This document shows, one piece after another, positions 10,718-52,835 of a stretch of DNA of 64,000 nt. The DNA comes from Apostichopus japonicus (lineage: Eukaryota > Echinodermata > Holothuroidea > Aspidochirotida > Stichopodidae): NCBI RefSeq assembly GCF_037975245.1, contig NC_092566.1, forward strand, positions 124,001-188,000, in the 5' to 3' direction. A program made the position numbers and the translations under genes. The notes below the pieces were generated by a model. The model made no database searches, was not told where the DNA came from, and was given only the letters and a program-made list of their open reading frames with translations. Numbering within the stretch: position 1 is the stretch's first letter; each line of letters opens with the position of its first letter.

Positions 10718-12512
10718 CACTCTCGTTGGGTGAGAGGGGACCCTGTCGCTCTGTTCCACTTCGTAGGCTCTACAATATAAACACTCACGCTGGGGTGAGA
10801 GGGGACCCTGTCGCTCTGTTCCACTTCGTAGGCTCTACAATATAAACACTCACGCTGGGGTGAGAGGGGATCATGTCGCTCTGCTCCATTTCAAAGGCTC
10901 TACAATATAAACACTCTCGTTGGGTGAGAGGGGATCCTGTCGCTCTGCTCCACTTCTTAGGCTCTACAGAGTAAACACTCACGCTGGGTGAGAGGGGATC
11001 CTGTCGCTCTGCTCCACTTCTTAGGCTCTACAGAGTAAACACTCTCGTTGGGTGAGAGGGGATCATGTCGCTCTGCTCCATTTCAAAGGCTCTACAGAGT
11101 AAACACTCTCGTTGGGTGAGAGGGGATCATGTCGCTCTGCTCCATTTCAAAGGCTCTACAATATAAACACTCTCGTTGGGTGAGAGGGGATCATGTCGCT
11201 CTGCTCCATTTCAAAGGCTCTACAGAGTAAACACTCTCGTTGGGTGAGAGGGGATCCTGTCGCTCTGCTCCATTTCAAAGGCTCTACAATATAAACACTC
11301 TCGTTGGGTGAGAGGGGATCCTGTCGCTCTGTTCCATTTCAAAGGCTCTACAATATAAACACTCTCGTTGGGTGAGAGGGGATCCTGTCGCTCTGCTCCA
11401 CTTCTTAGGCTCTACAGAGTAAACACTCACGCTGGGTGAGAGGGGATCCTGTCGCTCTGCTCCACTTCTTAGGCTCTACAGAGTAAACACTCACGCTGGG
11501 TGAGAGGGGATCCTGTCGCTCTGCTCCACTTCTTAGGCTCTACAGAGTAAACACTCACGCTGGGTGAGAGGGGATCCTGTCGCTCTGCTCCACTTCTTAG
11601 GCTCTACAGAGTAAACACTCACGCTGGGTGAGAGGGGATCCTGTCGCTCTGCTCCACTTCTTAGGCTCTACAGAGTAAACACTCTCGTTGGGTGAGAGGG
11701 GATCATGTCGCTCTGCTCCATTTCAAAGGCTCTACAATATAAACACTCTCGTTGGGTGAGAGGGGATCCTGTCGCTCTGTTCCATTTCAAAGGCTCTACA
11801 ATATAAACACTCTCGTTGGGTGAGAGGGGATCCTGTCGCTCTGTTCCATTTCAAAGGCTCTACAATATAAACACTCTCGTTGGGTGAGAGGGGATCCTGT
11901 CGCTCTGCTCCATTTCAAAGGCTCTACAATATAAACACTCTCGTTGGGTGAGAGGGGATCCTGTCGCTCTGTTCCATTTCAAAGGCTCTACAGAGTAAAC
12001 ACTCTCGTTGGGTGAGAGGGGATCCTGTCGCTCTGCTCCATTTCGAAGGCTCTACAATATAAACCAGTGGCGTAGGAAGGTACTTTTGAGTGGGGGGGGC
12101 TGAAGACTGATGGCCGGCCTGGGGGAGGGGTCTAAGGGGAGGGGGTGTCCCCCTCCCCTTTGGAATTTTTTTGCATTTCCAGGTGGCCTCAGATGCAATT
12201 TGGTGCAATATAGCACACTTCAACACCCACTCCATTTTGTAAAGAATTTTGCATTTTCACCTGGCCTTAGATGCAATTTGGTGCTTCAAATGAGATTTTT
12301 TTCTCATTTGGAAATGAAAAAGGGGTTTTCTGACTTGCGAAGCGGGGGGGCGGAACGATACTTCCGCCCCCCATATTTTTCACTGGGGGGGGGGCTGGCG
12401 GCCCCAGCCCCCCCGGTTCCTACGCCCTTGATATAAACACTAACGCTGGGGTGAGAGGGGATCCTGTCGCTCTGCTCCACATCTTAGGCTCTACAGAGTA
12501 AACACTCTCGTT
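10718..12512. repeat. 64-bp minisatellite, ~22 copies, split by a hAT MITE
   Basis: The unit contains GGGTGAGAGGGGATCCTGTC, CGCTCTGCTCCA and AGGCTCTACA. Two unit classes are visible: one with CTCTCGTTGGG and TTTCAAAGG, the other with CTCACGCTGGG and CTTCTTAGG. They occur in runs; five of the second class are consecutive at about 11405-11680. A 366-bp MITE interrupts the array at 12065, and at least one more unit follows it. Short open frames on the minus strand inside the array are by-products of the repeat. Confidence 0.95.
12065..12430 (+). mobile_element. hAT-type MITE, copy 1 (8-bp TSD ATATAAAC)
   Basis: A 366-bp element with terminal inverted repeats: it begins CAGTGGCGTAGGAA and ends GGTTCCTACGCCCTTG. 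It is flanked on both sides by ATATAAAC (12057-12064 and 12431-12438), a perfect 8-bp target-site duplication typical of the hAT superfamily. Internal sequence includes GGGGAGGGGTCTAAGGGG, AGATGCAATTTGGTGC and poly-G runs. There is no transposase frame, so it is non-autonomous. It is inserted inside the 64-bp minisatellite, whose unit itself supplies the target sequence. Confidence 0.93.
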
Positions 12513-16772: not shown

Positions 16773-17137
16773 CAGTGGCGTAGGAAGGTACTTTTGAGTG
16801 GGGAGCTGAAGACTGATGGCCGGCCTGGGGGAGGGGTCTACCTGGGGGAGGGGTCTAAGGGGAGGGGGTTCCCCCTCCCCTTTGGAATTTTTTGCATTTC
16901 CAGGTGGCCTCAGATGCAATTTGGTGCAATATAGCACCCACTCCATTTTGTAAACTTTGTATTTTCACCTGGGCTTAGATGCAATTTGTTGCTCCAAATG
17001 AGATTTATTTTTCTCATTTGGAAATGAAAAGGGGTTTTCTGACTTGCGGAGCGGGGGGGCGGAATGATACTTCCGCCCCTCCACATTTTTCACTGGGGGG
17101 CTGGCGCCCCCCAGCCCCCCCGGTTCCTACGCCCTTG
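16773..17137 (+). mobile_element. hAT-type MITE, copy 2 (8-bp TSD ATGTAAAC)
   Basis: A 365-bp element of the same family and orientation as the copy at 12065: it begins CAGTGGCGTAGGAA and ends GGTTCCTACGCCCTTG. The duplicated target ATGTAAAC is at 16765-16772 and 17138-17145. An internal CTGGGGGAGGGGTCTA segment is duplicated relative to the other copies. No coding capacity. It sits inside the nested element cluster. Confidence 0.93.
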
Positions 17138-21019: not shown

Positions 21020-21162
21020 TTCTCAAACGGGAGGGGACACCCCTCCCCTTAGACCCCTCCCCCAGGACGCATTTCAAAAATAAACATTGTGCCCCCTCCC
21101 CCTAAAAAAGTGATCCCCCTGTGCCCCCCAAGATTGAAATGTCTGGCGATGCCACTGCTTTA
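21020..21162. mobile_element. Fragment of a hAT-like MITE (right end)
   Basis: Contains CCCCTCCCCTTAGACCCCTC, shared with the MITEs and with the 1-kb elements, and ends GTCTGGCGATGCCACTG, a diverged terminal repeat. The left end is not evident. A 90-codon frame starting here (21121-21393) is not supported as a gene. Confidence 0.45.
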
Positions 21163-23649: not shown

Positions 23650-24530
23650 CTTGTATGGTATATGTGGATGCACCTTATTGACATGTATGGTATATGTGGA
23701 TGCACCTTATTGACATGTATGGTATGTGTGGATGCACCTTATTGACATGTATGGTATATGTGGATGCACCTTATTGACATGTTTGGTATGTGTCGATGCA
23801 CCTTATTGACATGTTTGGTATGTGTGGATGCACCTTATTGACATGTATGGTATGTGTGGATGCACCTTATTGACATGTATGGTATATGTGGATGCACCTT
23901 ATTGACATGTTTGGTATGTGTGGATGCACCTTATTGACATGTTTGGTATGTGTGGATGCACCTTATTGACATGTATGGTATGTGTGGATGCACCTTATTG
24001 ACATGTATGGTATGCAAGGGCGTAGGAACTGGGGGGGGCGCCAGCCCCCCAGTGAAAAATGCGGAGGGGCGGAAGTATCATTCCGCCCCCCCGCTTCGCA
24101 GGTCAGAAAACACCTTTTTCATTTCCAAATGAGAAAAAAAATCTCATTTGGAGCACCAAATTGCATCTAAGGCCAGGTGAAAATACAAAATTAAGTTTAC
24201 AGAATGGAGTGGGTGTGGAAGTGTGCTATATTGCACCAAATTGCATCTAAGGCCACCTGGAAATGCAAAAAAATCCAAAGGGGAGGGGGACACCCCCTCC
24301 CCTTAGACCCCTCCCCCAGGCCAGCCATCAGTTTTCAGCCCCCCCCACTAAAAAGTACGTTCCTACGCCACTGATGGTATGTGTGGATTCACCTTATTGA
24401 CATGTATGGTAGGTGTGAATACACCATATATACATGTATGGTATGTGTGGATGCACCTTATGGACACCTATGGTATGTGTGGATGCACCTTATAGATATG
24501 TGTGGTATGTGGATTCACCATATTGAGCAG
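23650..24530. repeat. 32-bp minisatellite, split by a hAT MITE
   Basis: The unit contains TGTGGATGCACC, TTATTGACATGTATGGTATG and variants with TTTGG. About eleven clean units run from 23650 to the MITE at 24015. Degenerate units continue from 24374 to about 24530. The ATGGTATG that forms the MITE target duplication is part of the repeat unit. Confidence 0.92.
24015..24373 (-). mobile_element. hAT-type MITE, copy 3, inverted (8-bp TSD ATGGTATG)
   Basis: The reverse-orientation copy of the family at 12065 and 16773: it begins CAAGGGCGTAGGAACTGG and ends CGTTCCTACGCCACTG. ATGGTATG flanks it at 24007-24014 and 24374-24381. It is 359 bp long with no transposase. It is inserted in the 32-bp minisatellite. 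Confidence 0.93.
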
Positions 24531-43340: not shown

Positions 43341-44193
43341 CATGTACCCATGAGGATCTCATGTCTGCAATTGTATCTAGATCAGTTGGGGCGGCGCGTC
43401 GAAATTTAAGCAAAAAGTTAATCCTTAGATCAGCAAGAATAACACCTCTGGTAACAATAAATCGCATCTAGACAGTTCTTTCCCCCTTAAATTATTAGTA
43501 TATTGTGCATTGGACCGATCAAGAATATGTTACTTGGCAAATACTGGGGGCTGAACATACCTTTACCTCCCACTTTTTTCATGGGGGATAAGCCCCTCAA
43601 GTCCACCGGTTCCGTCGCCACTGAAATCGAGGCGGGGTGACTTTTTGGATTTTACAATGCGACTATGTGCAACATGGAGCAATGTTTACGGGTCATTTCA
43701 TACGGTACTGGCTGAGATTTTGAAAATGAAAGTATTACATGGCAGTACCAGCATTATGTTTGAACTATTGCCAGATTATCAGGCAACATAGAAATGCATA
43801 ATAAAAACTTGAATGTTACTTACAGCAACGTTGAAAATCAATTCCTGAAGCTAGCACTGTAGCACATGCCGCGGATTCATCACATGCAGTATTGAATCGC
43901 TAGTGTGTGAGCTCCAGGTTTCGTAACCTGTGCTGCGAACCATGTGCTAGCTCCAGCTCCAGTTATTCTGCATGCTACATGTTACGATGTTAAACACAAA
44001 TTCGACTTAGATTCGAAACAAATAGGCCTATTTGATAGAGCTGTTGTGGGGGAATAATTTCGATTAGGGTTTTGCGCATTTGTCTGCAAAAAAGACAAAG
44101 AAAGTGAATTCTGGGAAAAAGTGGGGGCAAATTCCCCCTCTTGCCCCCCCCCCCTCCGCAATCCCGCCCATGCCTGCAAGGCTAAATTAACAG

Positions 44194-45219
44194 CACTAGC
44201 GGATCCAGGGCCTTTGTTTGGGAGGGGCCAAAGTGGCATTAGAGTGATATGGGGGAGGGGTCTAAGGGGAGGGGTGCCCCCTCCCCTTTGGAAAATTTTC
44301 TATTGCTGAATGCCCTCAGATGCAATTTGGTGCGACAAAAGTGTACAATGGTGATGTTAATTTACTTCTAAAAAAAATGTTTCCCAGGTGTAATTTTCTA
44401 AAATATTTATAAAACAAAGTTGGGATCATCTTTCTCAAGAAATTTTATTTCTCATAATTGAGACCTTCTCAGGATATAAATTTCTTACAACCAGCCTGTA
44501 ACTGCAAAATGGTGTTACACTGTAAATCCTCATGCTCATACATTTACATAGCTCCCAACTCTTGAGAAGGCAAATGCTGGTCCATGTCACGAATCGCCGT
44601 CCTGGGGGAGGGGTATATGGGGAGGGGGTGTCCCCCTCCACTTTTGATTTTTTTGGGAATCCTGGTCATGCCTACATGTAAAATGGTGGCACTTAGAAAG
44701 GCTTTTGTCACCCAAAATTTTCTGAGAAATATGCATTTTTTTGTGTGTAACATCAATAAATTGAATAGTAGGTGATAATTCATTCTTTCCCGTGGCATGA
44801 AAATGTTTGCTGCTCGCCCCAATGAAAAGAAATATAGGCTAATTTGAGGTTCAAATGATGCTGTAAAGGAGGTTTTATACTCTATTATGCTAAATGCTAA
44901 AGAAATGATGGTTGCTAAGTCAAAAATTGATGCAAATTTTTTTATGTATACTTGACAATTACAATGCGGTTTTTTCGGACGCTTGTGCGGGTCAGCGGGT
45001 TTGGGTGTTAGAATGCGGGTCTAATTCCCGCGAATTGCGGGTCAGTTGGGAGCTCTGCATTTAATTTTAAACCAGAAAACGAAAAGGTTTAGACTAGTCT
45101 ACCACTGCTATTCCTCTCGATTTTTTTTAATTTCCAATCATATGATTTAGCGGATGTTCGGAAACACTTTTTGGCTCACCTTTGGGGGGGGGGCATGGCC
45201 CCCCTTGGATCCGCCAGTG
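44194..45219 (+). mobile_element. 1.03-kb hAT-like non-autonomous element, copy A
   Basis: Ends are CACTAGCGGATCCAGGG on the left and CCTTGGATCCGCCAGTG on the right (inverted repeats CACTGGCGGATCC). It is nearly identical in inverted orientation to copy B (51793-52827); an internal 63-codon frame in A and its counterpart in B differ at only four positions. It includes AGATGCAATTTGGTGC and GGGGAGGGG(T/G) motifs shared with the small MITEs. The right flank is GGGACCGG; the left flank ATTAACAG does not match it. No transposase domain was recognised. The left neighbour (44120-44190) is itself G/C-run repeat DNA. Confidence 0.85.
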
Positions 45220-45353
45220 GGGACCGGTAACGGCACCGGCCTTCCCCCACTCCCCACCCCACTCTCCCCCACACAAAACATTAGGTCTTCGTTTTATAGG
45301 TCGCCGTTCAGGCACACCCTCAACTGTGTGGAGTTACGCTGGGTTATTTGAAA

Positions 45354-45412
45354 TAATTAGTATAGGCATACATATGGAAATAACTATTCCATATGTATGC
45401 CTATACTAATTA
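45354..45412. repeat. Perfect 26-bp inverted repeat with 7-base loop
   Basis: The arms are 45354-45379 and 45387-45412, containing GTATAGGCATACATATGGAA and its exact reverse complement, around the loop ATAACTA. It lies 135 bp from element copy A and about 500 bp before the sulfotransferase start. It could be a small foldback remnant or form a cruciform. Confidence 0.9.
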
Positions 45413-45910
45413 CAATCCAACTCAGTGAGCATTGCTTTGGCCTTCAGACTCAAGAGTACAAGCAAATTATATATGTTATGACGATTCCAATAGATGGGTT
45501 AATAGTGCTTTCATTGTAGGTTATCATATTATTAAATGACAAAAGAAACCGGCGCGTATTATTTTCGTTGTGTGGGTGCTACGGTTGAATGATTCTGATA
45601 GGGTACAACTTAACACTACTAGTATAGGCCTACAGCAATATTGAAGTTTACAACAGTACAGTATTAGTACTGCTTCTGTCTGCATAAAATGCTCTGTCTA
45701 TACGGGAGCCATTTTTCTTCTTACTTTGGTATTAAAATTGGGTGATAGATATTTCTCAAAAGCCATACAGAGATAGGATCAAGTTGAATGTAGGCTTACT
45801 TTGGAACAAGGTTTCTAAAATAATTGGAAGTATTTTGAAAAGGTATACAGCATATATGCTGCTGCTGCTACTGTGATAGTGTTGATTCCTACAGAAGTCC
45901 TCGGTGTTGA

Positions 45911-48576
45911 ATGCATCAGCATGCTACAATGGACAGAGCAACACGCTTAGAGTTGAAAAAGCTACTCGTTCTTGTAGTTATTATATCTGCTACTGGGATC
46001 GTTCTCCAAATATCAATGGTGAACAATATTATGGATGCAAGATATTCCCGCATTCTGCCTTACATCACCAACCAACTCAGAAGAGAAAACGGTAAGTATA
46101 TACAGGCCCAATATTAATATGACCACAGTCATATCAATATCTTATCTCAGCCATGTAGGGCACTAAATTGCCGGACCGGTGCTGGTTGGGGCGAGGGCTT
46201 GGTCGGATCCCATTTTGGCCTGTGTACGCTATAAATCTCACTCGACCATGGCACTTTAATTTGGTCCGCAGGTAACATTCCGCCCTTAGGTCACATATGA
46301 CATTGTTATCGGCGGAAAGCTTTCCCCAGTGGCGTGCACAAAGGTTTAGAGTATTGTACATTTTGTTTGTTTTTATTTGTGAAAGAACACACCTCCCTCC
46401 TTCTTTACAATGTGAGGGCGTTGTGGTCAAGTGGTTAAGGCAGTGGACTTGTGATCTAAGGATTACAGGTTCGAGCCCTGGCCTTGTGTCCTTGGGCAAG
46501 GCGCTTTATCTCCATTGCCTCTCTTCACCCAGGTGTATAAATGGGGACTTGCGAGGTAACTTGTAAATATAGTTGCGTGCGCCGGTTTATGGCTGCACCC
46601 TATGGGAAGTCCCCCGGGGGACACGTGGTTGTGGTGCACTGTGGTGCCCCAGGAGAGATTGATTGAATTGTGCACACTTTGGTGCATGTGTAGGTGTATC
46701 AAGTTACCATGGTTGTAAAGTCGTGTGAGAGGGCCTTGGCCCTGAACAAGACTGTAAACCTAAATAATAGAAAATATACAGTCAACAGTTCGATTTAGAG
46801 AAGCAATATACGCATAGTTCTGTCTTATCCAGCATGGCGGGTGTGTGTGTTCACCATAAAAGAGATTATTGAATGATAGCGGGTTACCTAGCTATGTCAA
46901 TTATTATTATTTAGAGAGGGACGATTAGTTGTTGTATAGGTTACTTTATTTCTAAATTTGACTGATTTTTAGATTTGATATTCTACCTTTCGATTCCTTC
47001 CTTTAGGTCAGATTGTTGGTAGAGTGCTTCGTACTCACACAACCTACTCTGGTAATAACTCTTTTGTAATTATGCTCACCAACCTATCTCTGCAGAGCAA
47101 CCAAACTCTGGATGATATTTTACTAAAGGTTTGTGTATTACGTTGGTTTATATATCTGTCCGACTATCACTTTACGATAACTTAACGTTCACATATAATA
47201 AGTGTTTTTATGAACGCGAGTGCACATGCTTGAAATGAAACTGTAGTCGTGAAGAAAGAAATGATAACGTTCAAGCTGTTGATGCTCAGATTTACCTTCA
47301 TTACTTCCCTTTATATGTTCTTTCACAATTCTCCCCAACACTTTGCTTTGCCGTTCTATACCCCCCCCCCCCTCCCGGCCCGCCCCAGCACCATCCTTCT
47401 GGTTGTGCAGTTAACACCAACAACTTTTGCAGTGTACTGAATTCAATATGAATGAATTGTGGCCGAAAGAATTTTAAAACAGAATTGGTGTGAAGTGTAT
47501 TCTGTTAAAGATATAAATGAATATGTGGCTGTGAAATATGGGAATAACATGTTTTACCGATATGGAAGTTTATAGAATCAGGGAATTACAGGACTCTGGT
47601 AACATATAGAGTAATTGATAAACACAGTCTCTCTATAATTGGCATTTAAAGACAAATTATGTGAAGCAACTCAAGCAGTGAGAACACTCACAGCACAACT
47701 AAACGGTACTCTGTCAAACTGTTTCCTTCTCATGTTTCACAGAATAAATCACTGACCTCAAAAGAATGGCTGTACTTAATGGAAACGAGACAAATGATAC
47801 GAACTGATCGCACAAAACGGATATGCGCGCAGCTCAATCTATCGAAATTCACCGCAGAGGAAATGCTTGAGCGCAAGGGATTACGCGCAACTTTTTACTC
47901 CAACGACCCATATAAAATCACATTTAGCGTTGTCAAGAAAGCAGCTTCGAATAACTTTGAAAACCTTTTCAAAGAATTAGGAGGTCTGACCAGATTATTT
48001 ATGTTGCCAGATGACATGTGTAAACCACGATTGGAATCTTACACGAAGGTTCTCTTCATCCGCCACCCATTGTCACGTGTTCTCTCTGCATATATTGATA
48101 AATTTGTTCTTCATCATATCGATCACTTCATTGGCATCGGAAGAAACATAATATATGCACATCGTAAAAATGTTAGCAAACAGGAACGGATTGCAGCGGC
48201 GAAGAAAGCAACGGACGTGAAATTCAAAGAGTTCATCGCATACATAACTGGTGATCCCAAGCACAGAAAAAATACACACTGGAACAACTATTGGAAACAT
48301 AACAGAGTATGTGAAATACAGTATGACTTTATTGGTAAGCTTGAAACAATACGCGATGACGTTAAGTATATGTTGTATAAACTAAAAGTGGACAATCTGA
48401 CGCAACTGGACATACCCAGAGCTTATATGACCTACCACGGAGATCGGGATAAACTTCGATCTTACTATCAAGATATATCCAAAGGACTCTTAAGGCAATT
48501 TTTTTCTGTATATAAAACGGATTTTGAGCTCTTTGGTTACAGTATGGACCTACTAGGCCATAGTATTTGGTCGTAA
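45911..48576 (+). CDS. Golgi carbohydrate sulfotransferase, CHST8-14 / Sulfotransfer_2 family (complete, three exons)
   Basis: Exons are 45911-46091, 47007-47128 and 47743-48576, with phase-1 and phase-0 junctions, giving 378 residues. An in-frame ATG at 45929 would give 372, and I cannot decide between the two. Residues about 18-36 (LLVLVVIISATGIVLQISM) form a type II signal anchor after a short basic cytosolic tail. In exon 3, VVKKAASNNF (about 164-173) is the 5'-phosphosulfate loop for PAPS, where many family members have PKVA(C/S). VLFIRHPLSRVLSAYIDKF (about 204-222) is the 3'-phosphate-binding motif, and YDFIGKLET (about 295-303) is a conserved family block. Several N-glycosylation sequons are present (NNS, NLS, NQT, NKS, NVS, NLT). 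Family members sulfate GalNAc, dermatan/chondroitin or HNK-1 glycans in the Golgi lumen; the acceptor here is unknown. A poly(A) signal is likely at 48855. Confidence 0.88.
46414..46790 (+). mobile_element. tRNA-derived SINE in sulfotransferase intron 1
   Basis: The head has an A box (GTGGTCAAGTGGTTAAGGC, 46423-46441) and a B box (GGTTCGAGCCC, 46469-46479). The body contains CCTTGGGCAAGGCGCTTTAT, CACCCAGGTGTATAAATGGG and a tail around CTGTAAACCTAAATAATAG. It lies in the same orientation as the gene. The body motif is one I associate with widespread invertebrate SINEs, but I cannot name the family. Its ends are approximate. Confidence 0.75.
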
Positions 48577-48854
48577 CATACTATTTTAAATATATACCTT
48601 TAAGTATGTATCAACTCACTGAAGAAAACGACTTGTGCATTATATTTTCTCTGAGTCGAACTGATACTGAACATGCTTCGATGAAGGCATGAAAAGGAGA
48701 CAACTCAGCTAGGATCCGTCACAAGGTACGATAAGGTACGATATACAGCTGCTTCAATGACGGGCTGACTTTTATGATAGTTACTATTATGTTCTCTCGT
48801 TTCTCGTATACTCTCCACAGTGGAATATGTAAGAATGCGATAAAGATCTTTTAG

Positions 48855-48860
48855 AATAAA
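48855..48860 (+). terminator. Candidate sulfotransferase polyadenylation signal
   Basis: AATAAA in the context TTAGAATAAAGTTC, about 280 bases after the stop codon. It is the best hexamer in the downstream flank. Confidence 0.5.
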
Positions 48861-49084
48861 GTTCAGGAAAACTGCATTTTCGAATGATCGTATAGTTATT
48901 TAACAAGGTTTCCTATGTACGGTTAAAGTTCGGTTACGGCTAAATTGCCAAAGCTTATTGTAACATAATTATCACGTGCATTTAACTGCAAATAGCTGCA
49001 TAAAATAGTGCTGAACTATTGTTTTGATCTAATACCTACATGTAATGTACTCTATGAACGAGATATAGAAACTTGGTGAATGGA

Positions 49085-49245
49085 TGTGTGTCCATTAGTG
49101 AGGGGGGGGGGGGGCGGGGTGACATATAATTTAGTATGGGGTGGACAAGGGCGTGGGAGTGTCAGGTGTGTCCATTAGTGAGGGGGGGGGCGGGGTGACA
49201 TATAATTTAGTATGGGGTGGACAAGGGCGTGGGAGTGTCAGTGAA
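49085..49245. repeat. ~81-bp tandem duplication
   Basis: Two adjacent copies of a segment containing TGTGTCCATTAGTGAGGGGG, GACATATAATTTAGTATGGG and ACAAGGGCGTGGGAGTGTCA. They differ in the length of the internal G run. Confidence 0.88.
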
Positions 49246-49549
49246 ATCAAAAGTCGGATTCAAATCAATTCTCCAAGTCGATTTCAAAATTGGAGCCGAA
49301 TTCAAATGAAAGTATAAGAGAATAAACAAAAACAAGTTGAAAAAGAAACAAATATTTCTCTCTGTTTTTCTACATTTCCTATATTTTGATAATATTAGGC
49401 CAACAAGATGCTACAGCTCCCGCGGCCCTTTATACCACATCCGCTAGAATTGAATAACTCTCAGAAATATATTTCTGTGCCTTGCTTCAAGAACATGAAA
49501 AATCTGCAAACACGGCAGCTGAGTTTTCATGCATGTATCTCCAACAGGG

Positions 49550-50215
49550 CTTGGAACGCATTCCAGAGAACTGTAATTCCTCTTTCTGACAAGTGTTTGT
49601 GTGCTGTGAAGATGCTACGAGGAACAAGAATTATCATCAAATGCTTCAGTGGTGTTCGCTCTCTGCACCCACCAGTGCATTAAAATAAATTCCAGAGAAC
49701 TGTAAATCCTCTTTCTGGCAAGTGTTTGTGTGCTGTGAAGATGCTACGAGGAACTAGAATTATCATCAAATGCTTCAGTGGTGTTCGCTCTCTGCACCCA
49801 CCAGTGCATTAAAATAAATTCCAGAGAACTGTAAATCCTCTTTCTGACAAGTGTTTGTGTGCTGTGAAGATGCTACGAGGAACAAGAATATCGTCAAATG
49901 CTTCAGTGGTGTTCGCTCTCTGCACCCACCAGGGCATTAAAATACATTCCAGAGAACTGTAATTCCTCTTTCTGACAAGTGTTTGTGTGCTGTGAAGATG
50001 CTACGAGGAACAAGAATTATCATCAAATGCTCCAGTGGTGTTCGCTCTCTGTACCCACCAGGGCATTAAAATACATGCCAGAGAACTGTAATTTCTCTTT
50101 CTGACAAGTGTTTGTGTGCTGTGAAGATGCTACGAGGAACAAGAAATATCGTCAAATGCTTCAGTGGTGTTCACTCTCTGCACCCACCAGGGCATTAAAA
50201 TACATTCCAGAGAAA
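49550..50215. repeat. ~130-bp tandem array, five copies
   Basis: The unit contains TTCCAGAGAACTGTAA, CTGACAAGTGTTTGTGTGCT, GAAGATGCTACGAGGAAC and GTGTTCGCTCTCTGCACCCA. Copies start about every 126-131 bp. The open frame at 49408-49683 runs into the first unit and has no recognisable domain. Confidence 0.9.
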
Positions 50216-51439
50216 TTGAATTCATCTCTCTCATATGTACTTTACTACTTTAATCTCGCTACGTGAGAACCAGAAATGCTCCCAAAACGCTACAGCTTCA
50301 GGACCTTTCCCCTAGGGACCCCTTTAAAGTTCTAAGATTGGCATATATTCATAGACTTGTTGAGTAAATCCTTTTTGTGGCATGTAATCTTAATTTTTCT
50401 AAAAATGATATACCTTCGGGGACTTCGCCTCACCCAGTACTGCCCATCCAATAACATTTGCAGTTGTAATTATAAGACAAAATTAATCTTTTACTGGTTT
50501 AATTGACAAAACGTTGCTGAGCCAGTCGCAAAAACAGGTAGCCGGTCTCGTCTATATGTATCATACGAAATAAATCTATCTATCTTCAATCTACTCCGGT
50601 CTTCTTTATATAATCCCCTTACACCATCCTATGAGCAGCCACAGCAAAAATTAGTTTACAAACATTTTAATTTCAAACATGCTTTTTGAGAGAGGGGGGG
50701 GGGGTAGGTGAGCCCATTCCATATGAGTGTCGTACACACTAAAAAGTTACAATAGGAAGCAGAATTTATGTTCGGTTATATGTTTAGTATGAGAACTCAT
50801 TTTGAACACAATTTCCAGAACCAAGAAACACGCCTACTTCTTCTTTGTTATTTAATGAAGTAATGAGTTGATAAAGAATGTCGATGTCAAATCGCGTCAA
50901 CATGCAAAATATATGTATTTCCACGAACGACTGGCAGTGTTAAGTCAATGGCCTGTCCGAGTCTTTGCTTTAAAAAAATAACATTCGCCATTTTGGTTGA
51001 GTGTAGACTGTTAGTGTACAACTGAATTATGCGTAGGCATTGAGTTAATTGGATGATCTTTTATGGGGACACATAAAGGTATATGGGCTTACTGGCTCTA
51101 ATTTTTTTGATTGGAGCTTGAATATCATATTTTTGGTGTTGCATATATTACACCAAATCCACCAAAACAAAAGTTTAAACCATATGATCCAATAAAACAT
51201 TTGTATGTATGTGTGCGTTTGTTTTGCTATCTGACCGAGGACTTGAACAAAAGAATTTCAGGTCCTCGGTTGTGATTTCTAAAAAATCACCACGTCCACG
51301 GAAGAATTCTATTGCAAGTGTATTGTTAAGGTTAGGGTACGTGGATTTGAACAATGGAAAATACAATGGGGTCCTCGGACTGAATGTAATACAAACATGT
51401 GTATGTGTTTATATGTGTGTGTGTGTGTGTGTGTATGTG

Positions 51440-51792
51440 ACGCCCTTGGCTCGTAAACACGATAACTCAACAATGGCCAGTTGGATTGAGATCATACTTA
51501 GTACATAGATGCGCCATACTGAGTAGATTTTGAAGCTCATCTCATGAATATTAATGAGGTCACGGAGTCAAACGTAAAAAATCTTCAAAAGCTAATAACT
51601 CCGCAACCAAAAGTCCGAATTTATTTATACTTAATAATAATATGTTGGTAGATAGCAGGTACATGGTGATATATGTTCAAGTTGATATTATGCATATTTG
51701 TTAGGGGGCGGGGCTTAAGTTGATTTTTACTAAAATAGCTTGTAAACACGGTAACTGAATAACTAAAAATAAGTTGGATTGAAGTCATACTG
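51440..51792. repeat. Two diverged copies of a short repeat, the second cut by element copy B
   Basis: The segment near 51450-51500 (TAAACACGATAACTC, GTTGGATTGAGATCATAC) resembles 51738-51790 (TAAACACGGTAACTG, GTTGGATTGAAGTCATAC). In the first copy the sequence continues TTAGTACATAG; in the second it stops at CATACTG, exactly where element copy B begins. A TG microsatellite lies just upstream (51404-51438). Confidence 0.6.
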
Positions 51793-52827
51793 CACTGGCG
51801 GATCCAAGGGGGGGGGGGCCAAGGGGGGCCATGCCCCCCCAAAGGTGAGCCAAAAAGTGTTTCCGAACATCCGCTAAATCATATGATTGGAAATTTAAAA
51901 AAAATCGAGAGGAATAGCAGTGGTAGACTAGTCTAAACCTTTTCGTTTTCTGGTTTAAAATTAAATGCAGAGCTCCCAACTGACCCGCAATTCGCGGGAA
52001 TTAGACCCGCATTCTAACACCCAAACCCGCTGACCCGCACAAGCGTCCGAAAAAACCGCATTGTAATTGTCAAGTATACATAAAAAAATTTGCATCAAAT
52101 TTTGACTTAGCAACCATCATTTCTTTAGCATTAAGCATAATAGAGTATAAAACCTCCTTTACAGCATCATTTGAACCTCAAATTAGCCTATATTTCTTTT
52201 CATTGGGGCGAGCAGCGAACATTTTCATGCCACGGGAAAGAATGAATTATCACCTACTATTCAATTTATTGATGTTACACACAAAAAAATGCATATTTCT
52301 CAGAAAATGTTGGGTGACAAATTCCTTTCTAAGTGCCACCATTTTACATGTAGGCATGACCAGGATTCCCAAAAAACTCAAAAGGGGAGGGGGACACCCC
52401 CTCCCCATATACCCCTCCCCCAGGACGGCGATTCGTGACATGGACCAGCATTTGCCTTCTCAAGAGTTGGGAGCTATGTAAATGTATGAGCATGAGGATT
52501 TACAGTTTAACACCATTTTGCAGTTACAGGCTGGTTATAAGAAATTTATAACCTGAGAAGGGTCTCAATTATGAGAAATAAAATTTCTTGAGAAAGATGA
52601 TCCCAACTTTGTTTTATAAATATTTTAGAAAATTACACCTGGGAAACATTTTTTTTAGAAGTAAATTAACATCACCATTGTACACTTTTGTCGCACCAAA
52701 TTGCATCTGAGGGCATTCAGCAATAGAAAATTTTCCAAAGGGGAGGGGGCACCCCTCCCCTTAGACCCCTCCCCCATATCACTCTAATGCCACTTTGGCC
52801 CCTCCCAAACAAAGGGATCCGCCAGTG
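51793..52827 (-). mobile_element. 1.03-kb hAT-like non-autonomous element, copy B (inverted relative to A)
   Basis: It begins CACTGGCGGATCCAAGG and ends GGATCCGCCAGTG. The interior is the reverse complement of copy A at high identity, apart from small indels in the G runs. The right flank CCGGTCCC (52828-52835) is the exact reverse complement of copy A's right flank GGGACCGG (45220-45227). The left flank TCATACTG shows no matching duplication. No coding capacity was recognised. Confidence 0.85.
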
Positions 52828-52835
52828 CCGGTCCC

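Follow-up and report, generated by a model that had tools for sequence, protein, structure and literature searches.

A sulfotransferase gene in an inversion between two oppositely oriented hAT elements: a candidate footprint of reversed-ends transposition in an animal genome

Inversions flanked by transposable elements are usually ascribed to recombination between the copies, and alternative transposition, in which ends from two separate copies move as one unit, is documented chiefly by experimental work in maize and fly. In reversed-ends transposition of the maize Ac/Ds elements, two copies in direct orientation move by the ends that face each other, and the model predicts an inversion with an element at each breakpoint, a new 8-bp target site duplication (TSD) that is split, and the loss of the intervening fragment (PMC8225341). 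The locus described here resembles the Ac/Ds case in that hAT elements of opposite orientation stand at both breakpoints and a single new 8-bp TSD has one half at each of them, while the other two flanks are unrelated and the intervening fragment is apparently gone. It differs in that it would be a footprint of old and natural origin in an animal, left by a non-autonomous family of ~1 kb elements and with a reconstructed progenitor, and in the size of the segment, which is 6.6 kb compared with about 81 kb in Ac/Ds (PMC8225341). The natural inversion 2z3 of Drosophila buzzatii is likewise flanked by opposite copies, in this case of Galileo, with an exchanged TSD; however, Galileo belongs to the P superfamily and has a 7-bp TSD, both TSD pairs are exchanged and the copies are chimeric (PMC2775673), whereas at the present locus one pair is matched. 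A search of open-access papers gave no example of reversed-ends transposition arising naturally in an animal, although such examples may have been published.

We analysed a window of 64,000 nucleotides of the Apostichopus japonicus genome (C6:124001-188000), to which all coordinates below refer unless a contig is given, and searched the whole genome (671.6 Mb, 35 contigs). Element A (44194-45219, plus strand, 1026 bp, termini CACTAGCGGATCC / GGATCCGCCAGTG) and its sister copy, element B (51793-52827, minus strand, 1035 bp), are both full-length, mutually inverted and 98% identical. Nearly all full-length copies are bounded on both sides by the family termini, CACTGGCGGATCC and its complement, and left ends of the family number 474 genome-wide (≤3 mismatches). 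Out of ~470 copies, 28 full-length ones other than A and B were aligned with their flanks. A perfect 8-bp flanking duplication was present in 23 of these 28, one more matched at 7 of 8 bases, and four (L018, L019, L020 and L031) lacked a simple TSD; the genuine TSD of this family measures 8 bp. Neither A nor B showed a transposase gene. Three relatives of ~1.4 kb (L101, L102 and L103), which have the same ends as A and matching 8-bp flanks, hold only a C-terminal piece of a hAT transposase, with a PF05699 (Dimer_Tnp_hAT) fragment inside. Together with the 8-bp TSDs, these relatives, which combine the ends of A with a hAT dimerisation domain, identify A and B, as far as sequence can tell, as non-autonomous hAT elements. 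A search of the open-access literature for the terminal inverted repeat gave no match. Elsewhere in the family, L021, L022 and L039 all have one TSD (CTCACTGA) and the same flanks, and these copies have spread within another repeat or duplication. The window also contains short GC-rich matches to the subterminal GGGGAGGGG motif of the element (12120-12206, 16843-16927, 21024-21064 and 24233-24318), which we read as subterminal repeats of other transposons, either related or convergent.

Read in the direction of the element, A has ATTAACAG on its left and GGGACCGG on its right, and B has GGGACCGG on its left and CAGTATGA on its right. The original prediction had placed both copies correctly, including their inverted orientation and near-identity, and its claims about their flanks also held: neither element has matching flanks of its own (5 of 8 bases mismatched in the pair around A, 6 of 8 in the pair around B), and GGGACCGG, which adjoins the right, inner end of A (45220-45227, plus strand), is the exact reverse complement, at 8 of 8 bases, of CCGGTCCC, which adjoins the left, outer end of B (52828-52835, plus strand). 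Compared across the copies in element orientation, B-left and A-right therefore have 0/8 mismatches. Within the window, this 8-mer is found at the A-right and B-left junctions only. Genome-wide and with up to one mismatch, it adjoins a right end solely at A and, among the 474 left ends, a left end solely at B, so that the search for GGGACCGG as a common flank of the family, which had been proposed along with the prediction, came down to these two junctions alone and a flank preference of the family was rejected. A fold-back duplication was also rejected as the origin of the match, since it has TSD orientation and extends over exactly 8 bp. The split of the TSD is genuine, and because GGGACCGG adjoins element ends at A-right and B-left only, we conclude that the segment was inverted: read as the halves of one duplication, the two 8-mers mean that the DNA from the right end of A to the outer end of B once lay in the other orientation. 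An inversion of ~6.6 kb that carries the sulfotransferase gene between two hAT elements is thus well supported. Based on the split TSD and the reversed-ends model (PMC8225341), the inverted segment would comprise the ~6.6 kb interior and element B (45220-52827), a piece of 7.6 kb with one whole gene. No joined empty target site, either as a paralogous or as an alternative-haplotype copy, is present in the genome, where both flanks are single-copy.

The second pair of flanks that a simple exchange between the copies would match, namely the outer flank of A (ATTAACAG, 44186-44193, plus strand) and the inner flank of B (TCATACTG, 51785-51792, plus strand; CAGTATGA in element orientation), differs at 7 of 8 bases. 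Genome-wide, no right end carries ATTAACAG (0 or 1 mismatch) and no left end carries CAGTATGA (≤2 mismatches). The inner flank of B belongs to a ~300-bp tandem repeat monomer (51414-51792, plus strand) that is interrupted by the element and does not continue on either outer side. This satellite occurs at many loci (106 matches in 40 scored places), and its intact copies continue as TCATACTTGGTACATAGATGCGCC; at three intact loci TCATACT is followed by TGGTACATAGATGCGCC or a near variant, whereas at B the satellite ends at the element. The continuation was not found across B, left of A or anywhere else in the window. Both the mismatch of this pair and the break of a repeat that does not resume on the other side of B had been noted originally and were confirmed here. 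On the outer side of A lies the final part of an unrelated dispersed repeat (43823-44172, plus strand), which stops 21 bp left of the element. Judging from these sequences, the element at the satellite has lost the left flank that originally bordered it. Since the difference extends over the entire flank and the satellite fails to resume, the mismatch between A-left and B-right is not due to a few point mutations, and we disfavour point mutation of an old TSD as its cause.

We consider it probable, although well short of certain, that the locus is the footprint of reversed-ends (alternative) transposition by this non-autonomous hAT family. The starting point would have been two sister copies near each other in direct orientation, the first with ATTAACAG on its left and the second, within the satellite repeat, with CAGTATGA on its right. 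A hAT transposase would have taken the facing ends, the first copy contributing its right end and the second its left end, and the joined ends would have inserted at the target CCGGTCCC, ~6.6 kb to the right. With each copy still bound to the chromosome via its other end, the DNA reaching from the second copy up to the target site, including the sulfotransferase gene, would have flipped, a new 8-bp duplication would have arisen with one half at each junction, and the DNA between the two donor copies would have been lost. From this footprint we infer that the donors lay in direct orientation, that a fragment was lost and that transposase acted. The elements at the two breakpoints are of opposite orientation (A plus, B minus), as the model requires, and because the model predicts exactly one matched flank pair and a lost fragment, it fits the locus with no extra event. 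One matched pair, two unrelated flanks and the absence of partner junctions elsewhere count in its favour, and the satellite that is cut at the right end of B and has no continuation fits the loss of the fragment between the donors.

The relation between A and B also agrees with this reading. Both contain an insertion that is common to them only, of 15 bp in A (AATTGAGACCTTCTC, 44456-44470, plus strand) and of 16 bp in B (AATTGAGACCCTTCTC, 52555-52570, minus strand), which is present in 0 of the 28 other full-length copies; a genome-wide pattern search for the 16-bp form returned B only, as the 1-bp deletion in A escapes the pattern. In addition, they share several substitutions and group as sisters (support 98/97) in an otherwise star-like family tree. 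The private insertion and the sister grouping are expected from a local jump followed by joint use of the two copies. A and B have diverged by ~1.2%, with private changes similar in number in each, and the distance to the family consensus is 1-2.5% for most copies; on this basis, the inversion event, or the local jump that created the pair, probably dates to the later part of the family's burst.

Other observations speak against reversed-ends transposition. Given that 4 of the 28 other copies have no simple TSD, a donor already missing one flank would not be rare. Moreover, the base-by-base comparison of A and B that had been called for originally showed, besides indels, 11 substitutions within element positions 20-950, all of them at 268-720 and none at 20-267 or 721-950. 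This clustering (P about 0.005 against the mutability of the family, in a post hoc comparison picked after the data were seen) hints at possible gene conversion between A and B at the element ends, and B has a 5-bp deletion within its left terminus. The star-like tree contains no informative sites for chimerism of A or B.

Gene conversion would sit well with ectopic homologous recombination between a TSD-less copy (ATTAACAG...CAGTATGA) and an inverted sister at CCGGTCCC, one flank having been replaced earlier, which we regard as an unlikely origin of the locus but the strongest competitor. Besides possible conversion tracts at both element ends, it is favoured by the split TSD, by the inverted copies with 1 kb of near-identity and by a natural precedent, Galileo in Drosophila (PMC2775673). 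For near-identical inverted repeats at a distance of 6.6 kb, recombination is also probably the more frequent process in nature. However, it predicts that both TSD pairs are exchanged, which the A-left and B-right flanks contradict. Because the satellite continuation is gone, it also requires an extra rearrangement that ended exactly at the left terminus of the element, and the partner junctions of the unmatched flanks were not found elsewhere in the genome. Of the originally proposed inversion by recombination between the copies, the inversion itself, recorded by the split TSD, is therefore well supported, whereas the recombination mechanism is not, as the second pair was not exchanged and the proposal had to invoke a further event.

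Insertion of a hybrid element, or sister-chromatid transposition, is more doubtful still. Here an element would provide its right end and its sister-chromatid copy the left end, both inserting together at CCGGTCCC, and the inversion and the second copy would arise in one step. The descent of A and B from one element and the split of the new TSD are as expected, and copies that were initially identical are predicted (PMC2775673). In contrast, an old TSD common to A-left and B-right is also predicted, and ATTAACAG and CAGTATGA differ at 7/8 bases, unless the progenitor had already lost a flank. Finally, we give very little credence to a chance 8-bp match of two independent insertions or to a misassembled inverted repeat, for although the A/B configuration is known from one assembled genome alone, the exact 8-mer adjoins element ends genome-wide solely at A-right and B-left, random pairs of 8-mers from the window were equal in only 18 of 400,000 draws (4.5e-5), and A and B are separated by both substitutions and indels and have single-copy target-side flanks, so that they are not one copy assembled twice.

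A second pair of copies, met by chance during a pattern search, provides an independent sign that this family uses the ends of two copies together. L020 (C22:15254287-15255295), one of the copies without a simple TSD, has the flanks TACACAGG and CACCTACT, and L104 (C22:15262350-15263349), in the same orientation, has GGGACCAC and TACACAGG; their outer ends thus share one 8-bp duplication, TACACAGG, while the inner flanks are unrelated. The two copies differ by 4.2% and are not sisters, and the interval of 7.05 kb between them contains an open frame of 349 aa with FG-GAP repeats. From this arrangement, the pair is a probable macrotransposon that carried a gene. It resembles Ac/Ds macrotransposition (Huang and Dooner 2008), as far as this is described where cited in PMC3260210, in having one TSD at the outer ends only, with ~7 kb and a gene between the copies; it differs in being reconstructed from one static genome, and it lies outside the window. 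This pair supports two-copy end use in the family, counts for the reversed-ends reading of A and B and weakens recombination as its default explanation. Our survey of close pairs covered a few pairs only. For L031, which lacks a TSD, no partner was found within 6 kb. L099 (C2:8870400-8874500) consists of two direct copies 2.4 kb apart whose left flanks are both ATGTGCAG and whose right flanks are both TATAAGTA, left and right being mutually unmatched; with the same flanks in both, it was set aside as a tandem duplication around a TSD-less copy. A pair on C7 was rejected as a case of alternative transposition because it involves a complete copy with an intact TSD, and a series on C9 because it is truncated.

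Taken together, the inversion at A and B and the probable macrotransposon on C22 raise the possibility, which we put forward tentatively, that a small non-autonomous hAT family of an animal makes repeated use of the ends of two copies in transposing, inverting segments with genes and moving genes between copies as macrotransposons, so that alternative transposition would regularly generate natural rearrangements in this lineage. The combination of one shared TSD pair with a cut satellite that traces the lost flank offers a way to separate transposase-made from recombination-made inversions in a single assembly. The second case emerged after only a few dozen of the ~470 copies, and the frequency with which alternative transposition remodels animal chromosomes could therefore be estimated by screening TSD-less copies across a genome.

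The sulfotransferase gene within the inverted segment is intact, with three exons and standard GT/AG splice sites. Exon 1 (45929-46091, plus strand) contains the start codon and a hydrophobic N-terminal stretch and is followed by the donor site GTAAGT, exon 2 spans 47007-47128 (plus strand), and exon 3 (47743-48576, plus strand) encodes the Sulfotransfer_2 domain (PF03567, E 7.8e-33) and ends with the stop codon. There are no nearby tandem paralogues that could show the ancestral orientation of the gene; the closest paralogues on the same contig are 49% and 37% identical and lie at 18.6 and 4.4 Mb. Two further repeats were observed around the gene: six 129-bp tandem repeats at 49430-50244, ~0.9 kb 3′ of it, and a perfect 26-bp inverted repeat with a 7-bp loop at 45354-45412, 135 bp inside the left breakpoint.
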